This document shows positions 88 to 21,102 of a stretch of DNA of 49,779 bases, in pieces. This DNA comes from Candidatus Poribacteria bacterium (GTDB lineage Bacteria; Poribacteria; WGA-4E; WGA-3G): contig JAGWBV010000019.1 in NCBI GenBank assembly GCA_021295715.1, forward strand, positions 1-49,779, in the 5' to 3' direction. Position numbers and translations under genes: made by a program. Below the pieces are notes generated by a model, which saw only the letters and a program-made list of their open reading frames with translations, had not been told where the DNA came from and ran no database searches. Each line of letters begins with the position of its first letter. Positions within the stretch are counted from its first letter, which is position 1.

Positions 88-1545
88 CTATTTCACATCG
101 GTTCGCAAAAATGCTAAAACAGCCGACATAAACAGAAGTAGTGAGAGCGAAACTAACAACATCAGATCCAGCAACGCCGCTTTGAAAGTGATACCTATCG
201 TCAATTTCTCTGAGAACTTGGGAATGCTGTTAAAGGCAACCGGTTTCTGGGATAAACCTTCTTTTACGAGATAAACATGATGACTTTCGTTGTCTGCTCT
301 GTCCTCTGATTGGATGAAGTCAACGAACTGTTGCCTATAGCGACGTGCTTGTTGGACAAACCTTTTATGTCTGGCGAACCCTGTCCCCGCCAGAGATTCC
401 AAAGCGTATTTGTAGATAGCCGCCGGGGATAGCCGCGTAATTTGTTGCGTAAACCCAACCTGTGCAAACTGCTTATCCAGATGCTCATCATCAAATCTAC
501 TCTTCGCATCCGCACGTTCAGTGAGATAGCCTGCCCATGTTCTGAGTGCCTCAATGTTGGGTGGATTGCCGGAAGGAGAACCGAATTGGAAGAGTTTTCT
601 ATCTTTCCAGTATCGTTCATGGATTTCATCAAGTTGTGCCTCCTTTAACCGAGAAACTTCGCTCCTGGAGGGAACCTGCTGGAAACCGCTCGCCAACGCC
701 CCCATTGTGTTTGGAATCAGTACCACAAATACAACCCAAATCAGAAGTAGGATCAGCAGACTGCTTGACGAATCGGAAAATTGGCTCGAGATAAACAGGC
801 CAAGCCATAAGAATATTGAGACGTAAAGGGCAGAAATAACAACGATTATCCCAAATCTTACCCATTCGCTCCCGTCGAGTGACACCAGTTTCGACGCGTT
901 GACAATCATTAGATTCAATAATATCCCAATCAGGAGGGGTAACATGAGAGTAAGAAACGCACCGATGAACTTTGCCAGAAGCACGGTAGCACGGGAGACC
1001 GAATTAGACATGAGCAAGCTTAAGGTCCCTATTTCACGCTCTCCAGAGATTGCATCGTAAGTGAATAGGATTGCCATGAAACTCATCACCAATCCGATGA
1101 TGAACGTCCAATCTAATTGCGTAAAATTTGGCAGCGCATCATTTTTCTGAAAGACATCTTGCACATATTCAAGCCACCAATTGTTTGAATGCGAGTAGTG
1201 AAAATTGGAGGCAGTCCAGTTGCTGCCGGAAGAAGCATTCGCGGTGACCCGCTTCGGCAATTTCGCGTCTGCACCCGTAGCGATAAACGCCAATGGACTC
1301 GGCTTCTTATAGAGATCTCCCGGACCTTTTACACCTAACTCGCCTAAACTGGCACTTCGTTCCTTCAGCGATTCCGTCGCGGCGTTGATATCTTGGGAAT
1401 ATTCTGATATTCTTCGCGGATATTGACTACTCACAAATATCACAGCATTCATCACCATCAGTGCCATTATCAAAACCACCGTGAGGGCAAACCGAAAACG
1501 GGTCAGATTATCAAGAATTTCGCGTTTTGCTATGTGCCAGATCAT
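88..1545 (-). CDS. ABC-2 type transporter permease subunit
   Basis: This 485-residue integral membrane protein is the permease half of an ABC exporter of the ABC-2 type. A first membrane segment near residues 17-38 is followed by a long extracytoplasmic loop (about 40-140). Then comes a block of helices (about 145-290), a second large hydrophilic region (about 295-440) and a final helix near 455-480. The sequence FTYDAISGEREIGTL at the start of the helix block is typical of the family (DAISGERE..GTL). It is preceded on the same strand by a paralogous permease 36 bases upstream, and the two probably form a heterodimeric channel. No ATPase gene is inside the window; it may lie beyond the left edge. 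The substrate cannot be deduced. Confidence 0.85.
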   Translation of the reverse strand: MIWHIAKREILDNLTRFRFALTVVLIMALMVMNAVIFVSSQYPRRISEYSQDINAATESLKERSASLGELGVKGPGDLYKKPSPLAFIATGADAKLPKRVTANASSGSNWTASNFHYSHSNNWWLEYVQDVFQKNDALPNFTQLDWTFIIGLVMSFMAILFTYDAISGEREIGTLSLLMSNSVSRATVLLAKFIGAFLTLMLPLLIGILLNLMIVNASKLVSLDGSEWVRFGIIVVISALYVSIFLWLGLFISSQFSDSSSSLLILLLIWVVFVVLIPNTMGALASGFQQVPSRSEVSRLKEAQLDEIHERYWKDRKLFQFGSPSGNPPNIEALRTWAGYLTERADAKSRFDDEHLDKQFAQVGFTQQITRLSPAAIYKYALESLAGTGFARHKRFVQQARRYRQQFVDFIQSEDRADNESHHVYLVKEGLSQKPVAFNSIPKFSEKLTIGITFKAALLDLMLLVSLSLLLFMSAVLAFLRTDVK

Positions 1546-1581
1546 GTCATTTCCTTTTATCAGGTAATCCAGAGATGGGTG

Positions 1582-3084
1582 CTATATAGCGTCGTAGCGC
1601 AAGAATGAGATGAATGCTCCCATGAAAAATAGGATATTTAACACCGCGAGTATCATAATATCCGGTAGGGCACGTTGCAGACTACGGCCGATACCCTCGC
1701 TCCGTTCTTTAAATCTGGGTATGCCGCTGAGGTCAAGAGCCCCTTGAGCTCCATCCTCTGTAAACCATCTACGTGAGGAGAATATTTTTTCATCTCTCAG
1801 ATATTCGACCCACTCTCGGCGGTATTGTCGAGTCTGTTCCATAAACTGATAGAAACTTCCCAAGTCTGTCTCCGCAAGAATTGCGGCAGTATTGTAGTAA
1901 ACGGGTGCTGGAGATATGCGAGATATGTTCAGTGCCAAGAGAGACTGTCGGTTCGGATTTTCGTCGAGATATGCTTTACGTATTTGCCATATCCTGTCGG
2001 CGTATTGTGCCCGTAGATTTTCCTTGAACCCGTAATATTCTTGGATAAACGGTATACCGTCCTCGTTTGCAAAACGGCTCATGCCTATGGTCTCTCCGCT
2101 GCCATAAGAACTTCTGTCTGAACTTAAGCCCATGCCACCAGGCTTGGCATGATCCCAAGGGTTTTCAACACCGCGTTTTTTCAAATACTCTCCAACTTTG
2201 GTCTCAAATTCCATCCACAGTTCATCCGCCTGTGTTTTGGACGATTGTTCTGATCGAATTGGACTCGCATGTTCCACGAGTAAAACTGTTAAATTGGGAA
2301 TGATCAGCACGAAAATCACCCAGACGCACATTGAAAACATCAGGGTGATAGAGGAGCGATGTGTCCGAGCGGAAAGGAAAAGTCCAATAAGAAAAAAGAG
2401 GGAGACGTAAAGCATAGAGACGAGAAAGATGAGTAAAACCCGTATCCAATCTGAACTATTAAAGGAGACATAAGGCGAAAATTGTATCACCAATAAGCCT
2501 GCCACGAAACTCGCAACAAGTGGAAGAGAGATGGATATCATCCCGGCAATATATTTTCCTAAGAGCAGCGTCGATCTCGGAACTGCGCATGAGAGTGCCA
2601 ATCTTAAAGTCCCTGCTTCTTTCTCTCGCGATATAGCGTCGTAAGAGAAAAGCAGCGCGAGCAGACTCATCACCACTTGGCAGATGACCGTGAAATCAAT
2701 AGAGGAAAAGATGTTCAAATATGGATTATCAGATCCGTGTTGTTCAGCAACGGCAGGAACAGATCCGTGCGCCACAGCTACCGAATTGCCCTTCCTTTTA
2801 TCCACACCTTCGTTGAAGACACTCAACAGTTTCGGTTTCCGATTACACTTCAGTCTACGATTTTGCCCAATTTGCCCGAATTCAGAGTATTTTTTGACCT
2901 GTCTTATCTGATCTTCATTTTCTCGTATAGCCGTTTGGTAACTTTGCAGTCTATCCTCATAACCTCTGGTCAGAACAAAGAGATTTGTTACAATCAGGAA
3001 AAAATAGATGAGCAATCCCATCAAGAACCTGAAACTTAAGATATTGGATGTGATTTCCCTTCTAACAATTGTCCAAAGCATCAT
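1582..3084 (-). CDS. ABC-2 type transporter permease subunit
   Basis: This 500-residue paralogue of the downstream permease has the same architecture: an N-terminal helix (about 20-40), an extracytoplasmic loop, a helix block from about 130 to 275 introduced by LLFSYDAISREKEAGTL, a second hydrophilic domain and a C-terminal helix. The shared DAISxE(R/K)E..GTL motif and matching order of segments point to an ancient gene duplication. The start ATG at 3084 follows GAGGAAAT, a usable ribosome site. The two permeases are separated by only 36 bases and are very probably cotranscribed. The partner ATPase is not visible, so the transported substrate is unknown. Confidence 0.85.
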   Translation of the reverse strand: MMLWTIVRREITSNILSFRFLMGLLIYFFLIVTNLFVLTRGYEDRLQSYQTAIRENEDQIRQVKKYSEFGQIGQNRRLKCNRKPKLLSVFNEGVDKRKGNSVAVAHGSVPAVAEQHGSDNPYLNIFSSIDFTVICQVVMSLLALLFSYDAISREKEAGTLRLALSCAVPRSTLLLGKYIAGMISISLPLVASFVAGLLVIQFSPYVSFNSSDWIRVLLIFLVSMLYVSLFFLIGLFLSARTHRSSITLMFSMCVWVIFVLIIPNLTVLLVEHASPIRSEQSSKTQADELWMEFETKVGEYLKKRGVENPWDHAKPGGMGLSSDRSSYGSGETIGMSRFANEDGIPFIQEYYGFKENLRAQYADRIWQIRKAYLDENPNRQSLLALNISRISPAPVYYNTAAILAETDLGSFYQFMEQTRQYRREWVEYLRDEKIFSSRRWFTEDGAQGALDLSGIPRFKERSEGIGRSLQRALPDIMILAVLNILFFMGAFISFLRYDAI

Positions 3085-3254
3085 ATTTCCTCAGTTACAC
3101 AAAGTATAGATGGTTTTCGCTTCTGCCGCGCTTCACTCCCTATAGATGACACTCGGATTTAAAAGTTTTCAGTGACGCGCCACTTCTCAAAGACTGTCTC
3201 ATTGAAAGAAACACTGTGATATTTGTATATGTACGTAGAACCAATCTGCAGTTG

Positions 3255-3806
3255 CTATTCTGTTTCGTCGGAATCCTCCTCAAAGTCGTAGAAATCGTCG
3301 AAAATCTCAACATCACTGGGTGCGTATTTCTCCCCATAAGCGGACTTGATGCTATTCCATAACCGATTCAAAACTCTTTCACTCTTCAATTGGTTGTAGT
3401 TGATTCCCGCTATCGCTCTCTGTATACAATCGGCAATAATAACCAAAAGGATATCGGGAACTTCGGCATCCTCATCAATGATAGCGTCAACAGTTTCCCA
3501 TACTGCGTGCTTGAACAGGGTTGGTAAACGATTGATATGGTGAAGGACCACCTGTGTTACGAGCACAATAAAACATGACACGCGAGGGATGGAGATATCT
3601 TTAGCGATATCATGCGCTTCCAACTCTTCAGGTATACCGATTTCATAGACATGCGCAACAACGCCATGGTGGATAAATCCTATGCGAAAGTCAAAGTTCT
3701 CGGGTATCTCCTCTTGAAAAAGCGGTGCACAATGGTCTGGCGCAAGCCGTAGGTACTCCATTTTTAGTATTCGCTTGTCAATACTTGTCTGTTTTTTCTT
3801 TCTCAT
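3255..3806 (-). CDS. hypothetical protein with acidic C-terminal tail
   Basis: I do not recognise this protein of about 183 residues. It has no signal peptide or clear membrane helix, although a hydrophobic stretch near 80-95 (CFIVLVTQVVL) is present. The last 25 residues are very rich in Asp, Glu, Phe and Tyr (DDFYDFEEDSDE). The ATG at 3806 is chosen over an overlapping TTG; a further ATG at 3761 is possible. It sits alone between the ABC permeases and the dioxygenase operon on the same strand. The absence of a competing long frame and the protein-like composition suggest a real gene. No function can be offered. Confidence 0.6.
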   Translation of the reverse strand: MRKKKQTSIDKRILKMEYLRLAPDHCAPLFQEEIPENFDFRIGFIHHGVVAHVYEIGIPEELEAHDIAKDISIPRVSCFIVLVTQVVLHHINRLPTLFKHAVWETVDAIIDEDAEVPDILLVIIADCIQRAIAGINYNQLKSERVLNRLWNSIKSAYGEKYAPSDVEIFDDFYDFEEDSDETE

Positions 3807-3876
3807 CAATCTTTGCGCTTTCCATCGAAAGCTTCAAACATCGGAGGAAAGCCCACTCCCATAAAAATTTGTCCGT

Positions 3877-4671
3877 TTAAACCGTATCCAAAAATCCCAA
3901 CTCACGTAACCGATCAATCCATTGCTGCCGTTTTTCACTGCCCGATGGATTTGCGACCCAGCGCGGATCGTAGAGCGGCTCGCTCGGTCGATTAAAGTGT
4001 TCGGGACTCTTCGCATTGCTACGCGCGCGGTCGCGTGTAGCAGCATCTTCTACTGGCGTTTTCGGATTGTTATAGTAAACTATAGTGCACATTCGACGGT
4101 CATCATTGCCACCCCAACTGGCATGCCAACACCGCATATCGAAAGCGACCACATCGCCGGGTTCCGATTTGCAAACATAACCCGGAACGTCACAAATCTC
4201 CAGTCCCAACTCGTTCAAATTCTCCCGTAGATCGTTGTGCAGCGGATTTTTGTGAGAGCCGGGAATCAACCGTAACGCCCCGCTTTCCGCGTCAACAGGT
4301 TCGAGATAATATGCGAACTTCACCCCGTAGCAATCCTTGGTTGGATCGACGTTATGGTCGGGATGCCAATTTGTATTGCCTACATAACGGTTCGCATCCG
4401 AAACAACGAAAAAGACATCGTCGCCGTATAGTTGCTCTGCCACCTTGCAGAACCGTGAGTCCTCCGGCAAATCCGAGAAAAATGGTGTTTCGGGTCCCAT
4501 CATCGGCAGCCAATGTCGGTGCGTTCCATCAAAGGGGACATGACTGTATGCAGACGCCATCGCCCCTTCAAACTCCTCGTGTATAGTGTTCAACTCGTCT
4601 TGGCTGAACACCTGCCGAAAAATGAGGAATCCCAAAGTGTGGAAATGCTTGATTTGCTGTTCTGAGAGCAT
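3877..4671 (-). CDS. phytanoyl-CoA dioxygenase (PhyH) family protein
   Basis: This 264-residue enzyme has the length and motifs of the PhyH branch of the Fe(II)/2-oxoglutarate-dependent dioxygenases. The iron ligands are visible as H103 and D105 in NWHPDHNVDP and the distal His183 in CWHASWGGND. The arginine pair just after it (DDRRMC) is the likely 2-oxoglutarate anchor. GALRLIPGSHK is the conserved strand preceding the distal His. Family members hydroxylate small molecules, and the substrate here is unknown. It is the last gene of a minus-strand run (binding protein, hydroxyacid dehydrogenase, PhyH, PhyH) and starts 24 bases after the preceding gene's stop. A GGAGG lies just upstream of the ATG at 4671. 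Confidence 0.92.
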   Translation of the reverse strand: MLSEQQIKHFHTLGFLIFRQVFSQDELNTIHEEFEGAMASAYSHVPFDGTHRHWLPMMGPETPFFSDLPEDSRFCKVAEQLYGDDVFFVVSDANRYVGNTNWHPDHNVDPTKDCYGVKFAYYLEPVDAESGALRLIPGSHKNPLHNDLRENLNELGLEICDVPGYVCKSEPGDVVAFDMRCWHASWGGNDDRRMCTIVYYNNPKTPVEDAATRDRARSNAKSPEHFNRPSEPLYDPRWVANPSGSEKRQQWIDRLRELGFLDTV

Positions 4672-4695
4672 GATGTTCCTCCGCGCTTTGTGGCG

Positions 4696-5910
4696 TTAAG
4701 AATCAACAGTAATTGATTCAGTTGCCCAACTATTAATAAAATCTTCGACGCTGAAACCCGTGGGCATATCGTTTGGATTATAGTCAGACATTCGTTGGAA
4801 GCCGGGCTGATATGTATCTTCCGGAAGTTTCAATTTTTCATCAAGTGGCTGGAATCGCCCACACAGTTCGGTTGCCCGCTCGGACGTAAAGTGATTTCCA
4901 AGATAGATGATGTCCCGACCGTTCCCCCATAGGGTGGAAGGATTCGCAGTTGTGTGCTTCAAATCATACAATTTCCCCGCCAGTTTTGAGAGCATGACGA
5001 TACTGACCATCCGTTCATGTGGTGAGGGATGCAATGCCGCCAGTTCAGCACAGAATCTGTTCGCGTCTCCGTTAATGATGGCATGGAAGATAGCGGCTAT
5101 TCGATCAAACTCCTGAAAAAAGAGCGCGTCCCATGCCTCAAACTGTTCGCGTGCTGTATTTGAGAGATAATGATAGAATCCCGGTTCCCAGTGCCGCCAA
5201 TGGACATTGGGTAAAGCCGCAAATCCGAATGGACGGTAACCCGGGTGAAGTGTGCGCCGCATCTTGCTACTGTAATAACTACCCCAGTGCAGCAATAGAT
5301 GCGTGTATACGACGCCGTCTCCAGCATTCAGTTCAACTGGCATTCCACCGGGCAATGGAACAGACGGATTTTCTGCGAGTTGTCTATGCTCTGCCTCGGT
5401 ATTAACCCGACGGTGGCTGCGCGGGACAATCCAGAAGACACTGTCGTCATACAAGGCAATATTCCACTGAAGATAACTCGGTCCGTGGTGTTCCATGTTT
5501 GAAATCATCCCACGCAGTGGAGCCGGTTCACCAGGACCAATGTCCCGATGCCAACGCATCGGACCCGCATCGTGACTCCCACTACAGATGCAGGCGAATT
5601 GGTGAGGCACGACGTGTTCTGCTTCCATCAGCTGCTGGCTAACGCCGAGCGTATTTTCATGAAGCAGAAATTCGATTGCCGAGCCAGATTCCTCATCACA
5701 GTCGGTGTCAAATTTCAAGCGCGGTTGAGCAGAACGCTCCCAATCACCGCCTTGTGGATCGGTAGGGAAACGGCGTTGTGCAGAAAATTCTTTTCTCCGA
5801 CTGACCATGTGTTCGATACTGCGGCGCAACGGTTCGAGTTCTGCCCTCGGCACGACAGATCGCAGTATGTTGTACCCCTCTTCTCTGAACTGTTGTCGAT
5901 CGACTTGCAT
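4696..5910 (-). CDS. PhyH-like dioxygenase, long form
   Basis: A 404-residue protein whose N-terminal 230 residues carry the PhyH pattern. RWHRDIGPG gives the His/Asp iron ligands (H121, D123), HLLLHWGSYYS gives the distal His (H208) and KMRRTLHPGY offers arginines for 2-oxoglutarate. The remaining 170 residues are extra compared with the usual 260-300 and contain no motif I recognise. The ATG at 5910 is preferred to the GTG at 5934 because GGAAGAGGAA precedes it. It shows little similarity to its downstream PhyH neighbour outside the metal motif, so the two probably act on different or successive substrates. It is cotranscribed with the dehydrogenase upstream (28 bases between them). Confidence 0.88.
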   Translation of the reverse strand: MQVDRQQFREEGYNILRSVVPRAELEPLRRSIEHMVSRRKEFSAQRRFPTDPQGGDWERSAQPRLKFDTDCDEESGSAIEFLLHENTLGVSQQLMEAEHVVPHQFACICSGSHDAGPMRWHRDIGPGEPAPLRGMISNMEHHGPSYLQWNIALYDDSVFWIVPRSHRRVNTEAEHRQLAENPSVPLPGGMPVELNAGDGVVYTHLLLHWGSYYSSKMRRTLHPGYRPFGFAALPNVHWRHWEPGFYHYLSNTAREQFEAWDALFFQEFDRIAAIFHAIINGDANRFCAELAALHPSPHERMVSIVMLSKLAGKLYDLKHTTANPSTLWGNGRDIIYLGNHFTSERATELCGRFQPLDEKLKLPEDTYQPGFQRMSDYNPNDMPTGFSVEDFINSWATESITVDS

Positions 5911-19365: not shown

Positions 19366-19564
19366 ATACTATGTTTTGGTAATTTACCTCTCTTTTCACT
19401 GTTGCAGGATGGAGTTGGTTCCGAAAAAGATGAAGTTGCTCTATTATTGTATAAAGAGTAGAGTTGTTATGTCAAGAAAAACCGAAAATAAGGAATGCTC
19501 GCGCAGGAACGCGAATGGTTAACGTCACCTTCTTGAAAAAGGGACCAGACCACAGGAGCATATA

Positions 19565-20524
19565 ATGCCTACAGGACGGATTAAGTACTACAATTTCGAT
19601 AAAGGCTTCGGATTTATCGCGCAAGATAGCAGTGATGCGGATGTCTTTTTACATAGTTCCGCTATTAAGCAGCCTGAATACGAGGAACTCCGTGTCGGAC
19701 AGCGCGTAAAGTATAGCATTGTTGAAGGTGAGAAGGGGCTTGTTGCCCAGAACGTCGAAGTATTGCTGACACCGACAGAACGCCGATGGCTACGGCAAGG
19801 GAAGGCAATTATTCCGCGTGGTTACGCGGGGTTCCCGGGTCAGGGTCAGGGCCAATTTATCAGCAATGACACGGTGGCAGTGTCTGGTTATGATGCCGGC
19901 AAACCAAAGCCGAATCGGAATCGCCGAGACCATGATGCATCTGTAGCACCTCTGGGACCGGCAGCAAAACCACCACACAATCAACGTTCCTCAGCGACGG
20001 ATTTTAAAGATTCGGCAGCACCGAGACAAGAGGCGCAAGACTCATCTTCAAAGCAACTCAGTTTTGGTGATCTCTATATCCTTAAGCAGATTAATTTTGA
20101 AACATCCATGTTTTTTGCGTTGTATAATCATGTACAACTGCCTGCTACCGTTCTTGAAATGACGCTCTCCAGTTTGACACTCAATAGCAATAAAGGTGAG
20201 CAGCACATCGCTAAAACGGATGTTAAATACTGTTATAAAGATATTGATGCAGAGAGGGTTCAGGCATCCGTTGATATTGATGCTACTGTGAAGGCACAGC
20301 AGCTGACACAATTAACCAATGATGTGCAAGCCCCTGAGATTGATACCAAAGCTGTTCGGCTCGCCCGAAAAAATGGAACTCCGATTGAGTTCACACTCCG
20401 TGAAGGAGAGATCTTCCGTGGCATTATAGACTGGGTCAGTCCTTACGAGATTAAACTCATTTTAGAGAACGGTGCCAAGGTTGTTATTTTCAGACATGCT
20501 GTGTATAGTTTTACCATAGATTAG
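19565..20524 (+). CDS. cold-shock domain protein fused to two Hfq/Sm-like domains
   Basis: A 319-residue probable RNA-binding protein. Residues 3-67 form a cold-shock domain with the RNP1-type KGFGFIAQ and RNP2-type DVFLHSS. Residues 70-160 are a Gly/Pro/Gln/Arg-rich linker. Residues 262-318 align with the Hfq Sm fold: LARKNGTPIEFTLREGEIF, GIIDWVSPYEIKLIL, and the Sm2-like VIFRHAVYSF (compare YKHAIS in Hfq). Residues 169-228 look like a second, diverged Sm unit (ILKQINFETSMFFALYNHV, ending IAKTDVKYCY). The protein plausibly binds mRNA or small RNA in the cytoplasm. CAGGAG precedes the ATG. The next gene starts 8 bases downstream and is probably cotranscribed. The Hfq assignment is by eye and needs a profile search. 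Confidence 0.85.
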   Translation: MPTGRIKYYNFDKGFGFIAQDSSDADVFLHSSAIKQPEYEELRVGQRVKYSIVEGEKGLVAQNVEVLLTPTERRWLRQGKAIIPRGYAGFPGQGQGQFISNDTVAVSGYDAGKPKPNRNRRDHDASVAPLGPAAKPPHNQRSSATDFKDSAAPRQEAQDSSSKQLSFGDLYILKQINFETSMFFALYNHVQLPATVLEMTLSSLTLNSNKGEQHIAKTDVKYCYKDIDAERVQASVDIDATVKAQQLTQLTNDVQAPEIDTKAVRLARKNGTPIEFTLREGEIFRGIIDWVSPYEIKLILENGAKVVIFRHAVYSFTID

Positions 20525-20532
20525 GTGCTACC

Positions 20533-21102
20533 GTGAAAGCATACCACGAACTTCTTGATGAGATTCAGCGCGATGTCGAACGTTTGCGCACAGAATCGGG
20601 GGGGGTGCCGTGTCCATCTACCTGCTTTTCCTGCTGTCGAAACACTGCAACGATGGCAATAAGTGAAGTCGAGGCTCGCGATTTAAAGGTCGGTTTAGAA
20701 GCACTTCCTGTTGAAATTCGCGCACATATTCGTCGCAAGGCTGAACAGAGCATCAGAAAACTGAAGGCACACGGTTATGACGCTGAAAATATAATGCCGG
20801 ATGCGGGCATGGAAGCAATTGCGGTCATAAAAGACACGCCTGAAGGCGAATGCCCTATGCTAATCGGTGGGGTTTGTACCGTTTACGAACACCGCCCTGT
20901 CATCTGCCGTGTCTGGGGATATCCTATTCATAGCGGCAATGAGTTAGCCTGTTGCTACAAAACTTTTATTGCGAAACGTCGCCGCTTCCGTCCACTCAGT
21001 TACGATCGCTATTGGAAAATGTGTCAGAATCTTAGCACAGCGTTGGGTGCCACTCGGAAGACCCCGAACTGCTACCTTGTCTCGCGATTGTTATCAAAAT
21101 AA
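20533..21102 (+). CDS. YkgJ-like cysteine-cluster protein
   Basis: A 189-residue protein starting at GTG, 8 bases after the preceding gene. It carries the cysteine pattern of the YkgJ/FliB-like zinc- or iron-cluster family. CPSTCFSCCRN near residues 27-37 is followed by ECPMLIGGVCTVYEHRPVICRVWGYP near 113-138, in which the C...C.vY..RP..CR.wg signature is clear, and by further cysteines (ACCYK, KMCQN). The molecular function of the family is not firmly known; it is thought to bind a metal or an Fe-S cluster. Cotranscription with an RNA-binding protein is notable. A rho-independent terminator follows at 21134-21165. Confidence 0.85.
   Translation: MKAYHELLDEIQRDVERLRTESGGVPCPSTCFSCCRNTATMAISEVEARDLKVGLEALPVEIRAHIRRKAEQSIRKLKAHGYDAENIMPDAGMEAIAVIKDTPEGECPMLIGGVCTVYEHRPVICRVWGYPIHSGNELACCYKTFIAKRRRFRPLSYDRYWKMCQNLSTALGATRKTPNCYLVSRLLSK

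Follow-up and report, generated by a model that had tools for sequence, protein, structure and literature searches.

Gene organisation at the locus

The window, meaning the whole analysed stretch of 49,779 nucleotides from a Candidatus Poribacteria genome, contains at positions 19565-20524 of the forward strand, to which all coordinates of the locus refer, an open reading frame for a 319-aa protein with orthologues in other genomes, in which a cold-shock domain (CSD) is followed by two Sm-like units (CSD-Sm-Sm). The CSD occupies residues 3-65 (19571-19759) and carries an RNP1-type KGFGFI and an RNP2-type DVFLH motif. It was detected by the Pfam search with an E-value of 7.7e-20 and by PF00313 with one of 3.9e-20, scoring 71 bits against a cut-off of 27 for that family, and CspA-type proteins were among its structure matches when Foldseek was run against the PDB. 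The CSD that the preliminary description had placed at the N-terminus of a single polypeptide (residues 3-67) is therefore present, with nearly the same limits. CspA-family members are stand-alone proteins of 65-75 aa, whereas the CSD here, for all its RNP1/RNP2-type motifs and CspA fold, sits within a 319-aa fusion and is followed by 23 near-invariant residues and two Sm domains, which places the protein outside the small stand-alone class.

These 23 residues (68-90, LTPTERRWLRQGKAIIPRGYAGF; 19766-19834) include a short helix predicted by AlphaFold2 at 70-77, and give way to a fast-evolving linker (residues 91-161; 19835-20047) which is probably disordered, its pLDDT being below 50. The first Sm unit (Sm1) spans residues 166-226 (20060-20242) and the second (Sm2) residues 257-318 (20333-20518). 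The spacer between them (20243-20332) is of near-constant length across the phylum, and 57 residues lead from K225 at the end of Sm1 to G281 in the middle of Sm2 in 27 of 28 relatives.

Upstream, 44-71 bases before the start codon, lies a 28-nt leader block (19494-19521) that is conserved in the genus, occurs once in the genome and contains a short UCGCG-CAGGAA-CGCGA hairpin. The stability of the leader RNA is unexceptional (z -0.67), and no Rfam family matched it above threshold. Control by CsrA, considered because of the AGGA in the hairpin loop, was rejected, no CsrA gene being found in this genome or in the 35 genus mates searched. Read as an upstream open reading frame, the leader would encode MLAQEREWL, and stops interrupt this frame in several relatives; the putative peptide resembles the TPTERRWL that follows the CSD. 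A cysteine-rich gene with a CPSTCFSCC motif recognised by eye (20533-21102), without a Pfam match at 1e-4, lies closely downstream in nearly all family relatives and in part of the order, and the two genes probably form one operon. A divergent amidohydrolase gene is found upstream in the family.

Predicted structure and relationship of Sm2 to Hfq

An AlphaFold2 model built on 35 aligned sequences predicts an Hfq-type fold, an N-terminal helix followed by five strands, for both units: helix 169-173 and strands 182-225 in Sm1, helix 261-270 and strands 274-318 in Sm2. Their pLDDT is about 75-90 over most of the length, with block values of about 50 at 171-180 and 67 at 251-260. Foldseek searches of the PDB recovered Hfq, with a TM-score of 0.89 over the target for S. 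aureus Hfq. The suggestion that both C-terminal segments are Sm-like is thus upheld by structure prediction, an Sm fold being obtained for each.

For the second unit, which had been aligned with Hfq by eye, profile searches point the same way. Residues 257-319 matched PF21979 (Hfq-related; cyanobacterial Hfq and M. jannaschii MJ1435) with an E-value of 1.3e-5 and PF17209 (Hfq) with one of 4.9e-4, both slightly short of the curated cut-offs (25.7 bits against 27 and 20.1 bits against 27, respectively), and the TIGR02383 score was 18.2 bits against 61.7, so that Sm2 falls below the curated thresholds for Hfq. Paralogues within the phylum exceed the PF17209 cut-off (38 bits). With its second half, a profile of 28 relatives (A1) matched Hfq sequences of known structure, about 40 distinct ones, at E-values down to 1.2e-5, and the Hfq N-terminal helix was also aligned. 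Matches of the same profile to NusA were weak (E 0.1-0.5), fell on true NusA genes and were set aside. Hfq similarity is therefore found in the C-terminal part, as had been proposed.

Hfq forms a six-unit ring and binds U-rich RNA through residues that include Y55, K56, H57 and F42. In the alignment these places are taken in Sm2 by F309, R310, H311 and Y294, with FRHA where Hfq has YKHA; judged from sequence, Sm2 retains the proximal-pocket motif of Hfq (Y/F-K/R-H together with an aromatic residue at the F42 position). Within the window's family F309 is invariant and R310 and H311 are conserved in at least 90% of sequences, and across the whole tandem class F309 and H311 are each conserved in at least 90%.

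Identity of the first unit

No Pfam or other family model matched Sm1 of the window's protein taken alone, and the unit was therefore folded in isolation. The resulting model is of low confidence (pLDDT 58.5); of its 50 best PDB matches, 49 were Hfq and the remaining one a U6 snRNP chain. Bridging relatives connect Sm1 with Hfq as well: in pairwise comparison the Sm1 profile matched a 96-aa stand-alone Hfq-like protein from another class of the phylum (L168, genome G082) at 1.4e-9, itself above the PF21979 cut-off at 2.7e-10, and the single Sm domain of a CSD-Hfq protein (L185, genome G075) at 4.1e-6. The Hfq likeness of Sm1 thus runs through its fold and these relatives, which rule out an unrelated domain, while its direct similarity to Sm2 is weak (45% probability in profile comparison). 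By alignment the only pocket residue kept in Sm1 is the lysine (K217), which is invariant in the window's family and in a chosen set of Sm1 sequences; the Hfq histidine has been lost. The protein accordingly differs from Hfq in having two Sm units per chain fused to a CSD, in its scores below the cut-offs and in an Sm1 without the histidine.

Conservation and selection

Mean identity and median dN/dS were obtained against up to 34 relatives. The CSD (95% identity, dN/dS 0.016), Sm1 (87%, 0.061) and Sm2 (75%, 0.096) are all under purifying selection; the segment of residues 68-90 is nearly invariant (97%, dN/dS about 0) and the linker is the most variable part (35%, 0.384). The preliminary description had called the first unit diverged, but within the family Sm1 is better conserved than Sm2. 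The CSD-Sm-Sm architecture is preserved across the family and the order.

Paralogues and accessory forms

A tree of the tandem region resolves three groups, namely CSD-Sm-Sm, tail-Sm-Sm and accessory proteins, the last with support of 100/100, and on this tree the CSD and tail states require two changes each. Several genomes carry both the CSD and the tail forms, which are therefore regarded as paralogues. Tail-Sm-Sm proteins are without a CSD and have a basic N-terminus with an [ST]xxWxPD-like motif; in the paralogues L079, L080 and L082-L097 this N-terminal motif is followed by basic low-complexity sequence.

In the accessory group the Sm-Sm module is joined to GmrSD restriction-type, sacsin/TmtA-like and RNase H-like proteins, some of which also have a CSD. 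Four GmrSD restriction-type proteins (L175, L176, L177 and L178) carry a C-terminal Hfq-type tandem Sm and then a CSD, and two sacsin/TmtA-like ATPase proteins (L171, positions 1527-5258 of the forward strand; L172, positions 2080-5703 of the reverse strand) end in a tandem Sm and may represent a form of a defence protein that senses RNA. Matches to the tandem profile extend to UvrD-GrpE-S1 and S1-CSD proteins. The CSD-Hfq protein of G075 (L185, positions 2119-2703 of the reverse strand), a frame of 195 residues, resembles the window's protein in having a CSD followed by an Hfq-type domain and differs from it in having one Sm unit; it is a possible intermediate form.

Distribution and search for separate Csp and Hfq

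Tandem Sm proteins were found in 80 of the 85 genomes of the phylum and in all 56 high-quality ones. In a sample of 214 genomes belonging to four other phyla none was detected, though there was no positive control among these, and a search of plasmids gave one weak match. The fusion itself recurs in other genomes with the same order of domains, as the preliminary description had proposed to check.

Hfq and Csp, both among the main RNA chaperones of bacteria, act as separate proteins. A separate hfq gene had also been proposed as a search target, and none was found in the window's genome, where the CSD-Sm-Sm gene is the sole Hfq match at E < 0.01. Across the 59 draft genomes of the window's family, neither an intact stand-alone Csp nor a single-domain Hfq was found: an 80-aa CSD frame (G047:C116) is truncated by the end of its contig, and the other Hfq matches inspected are longer proteins, mostly tandem. 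Since neither was found, the fusion appears to replace both, standing in for CspA and Hfq in this family. Other families of Poribacteria have stand-alone Csp genes with frames of 67-109 aa. The sole other CSD in the window's genome belongs to a single 408-residue frame (L002, contig G000:C90, positions 487-1710 of the reverse strand) that combines a CSD with the type III-A CRISPR components Csm2 and Csm4.

Each part of the protein is a known domain. Tandem Hfq genes, with two Sm units per chain as here, were reportedly described in a few bacteria by Sun, Zhulin and Wartell in 2002; these are not known to carry a CSD. No paper on a CSD-Hfq fusion or a tandem Hfq was found in the literature searched, which covers few subscription journals; one article mentions only that some species have two hfq-like gene copies (PMC3474761).

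Proposed mechanism and alternatives

The reading that we prefer, with a probability of roughly two in three, is that a CspA-type CSD and two Hfq-type Sm units make up an RNA-binding chaperone whose three chains would close into a pseudo-six-unit ring, Sm1 and Sm2 alternating around it. RNA binding is suggested by the domain families, and the three-chain ring, which the preliminary description had suggested, is plausible, and the near-fixed distance between Sm1 and Sm2 fits it. As Sm2 keeps the pocket motif and Sm1 keeps the lysine without the histidine, such a ring would alternate strong and altered pockets: Sm2 would offer the aromatic, basic and histidine residues with which the proximal face of Hfq binds uridine, and Sm1 the lysine only. 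Three CSDs on flexible linkers could deliver single-stranded RNA to the ring, so that the Hfq role (RNA stabilisation and annealing) and the Csp role (melting of RNA structure) would be performed jointly.

An alternative arrangement, in which six chains form two stacked or linked rings, one of Sm1 and one of Sm2, with twelve Sm domains in all, is unlikely, even if both units are predicted to be full Sm folds and crystals can show Hfq rings stacked into dodecamers (PMC5379935); the 57-residue spacing fits side-by-side units somewhat better, without being decisive. It is likewise doubtful that the tandem forms no ring and is instead a compact monomer or dimer, a module that docks proteins or clamps RNA. 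There are single Sm-fold proteins that act outside rings (Rof, RimP), Sm1 has no Hfq histidine, and a trimeric ring would be bulky on the large enzymes that bear the accessory copies, but Sm2 retains a pocket motif which in Hfq functions within a ring.

A DNA-related role, in which the CSD and Sm domains would bind DNA that is single-stranded or structured and the protein might serve in the nucleoid or in defence, seems improbable. CSDs bind ssDNA, Hfq can bind DNA (PDB 5uk7 is among the Sm1 matches) and the accessory branch is joined to restriction-type proteins; however, RNA is the ligand for which both domain families are best known, and, unlike defence genes, the core gene keeps its synteny across the family and the tandem occurs in nearly all genomes of the phylum. 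Chance or misassembly, with a CSD frame run into an unrelated one, is refuted by the recurrence of the fusion in dozens of assemblies made independently, single-contig genomes among them, and by the low dN/dS in every domain.

Beyond the preferred reading of a three-chain RNA chaperone, we put forward tentatively, as somewhat short of an even chance, that this is a phylum-specific chaperone in which a three-chain pseudo-hexamer of duplicated Hfq domains, bearing unequal pockets and three CSD arms, replaces Hfq and CspA in sponge-associated Poribacteria, the Sm-Sm module having also been recruited for RNA sensing on defence-type enzymes.

Conclusion

The fusion, with two Hfq units per chain, of this family of sponge-associated Poribacteria, in which free versions of its parts were not found, makes it possible to test in nature if a single ring whose pockets are unequal can do both jobs. 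It also bears on the way in which Sm rings of identical subunits come to have unequal ones, as happened in the eukaryotic Lsm rings, and finding the Sm-Sm module attached to restriction-like proteins suggests that it is used in defence to sense RNA.
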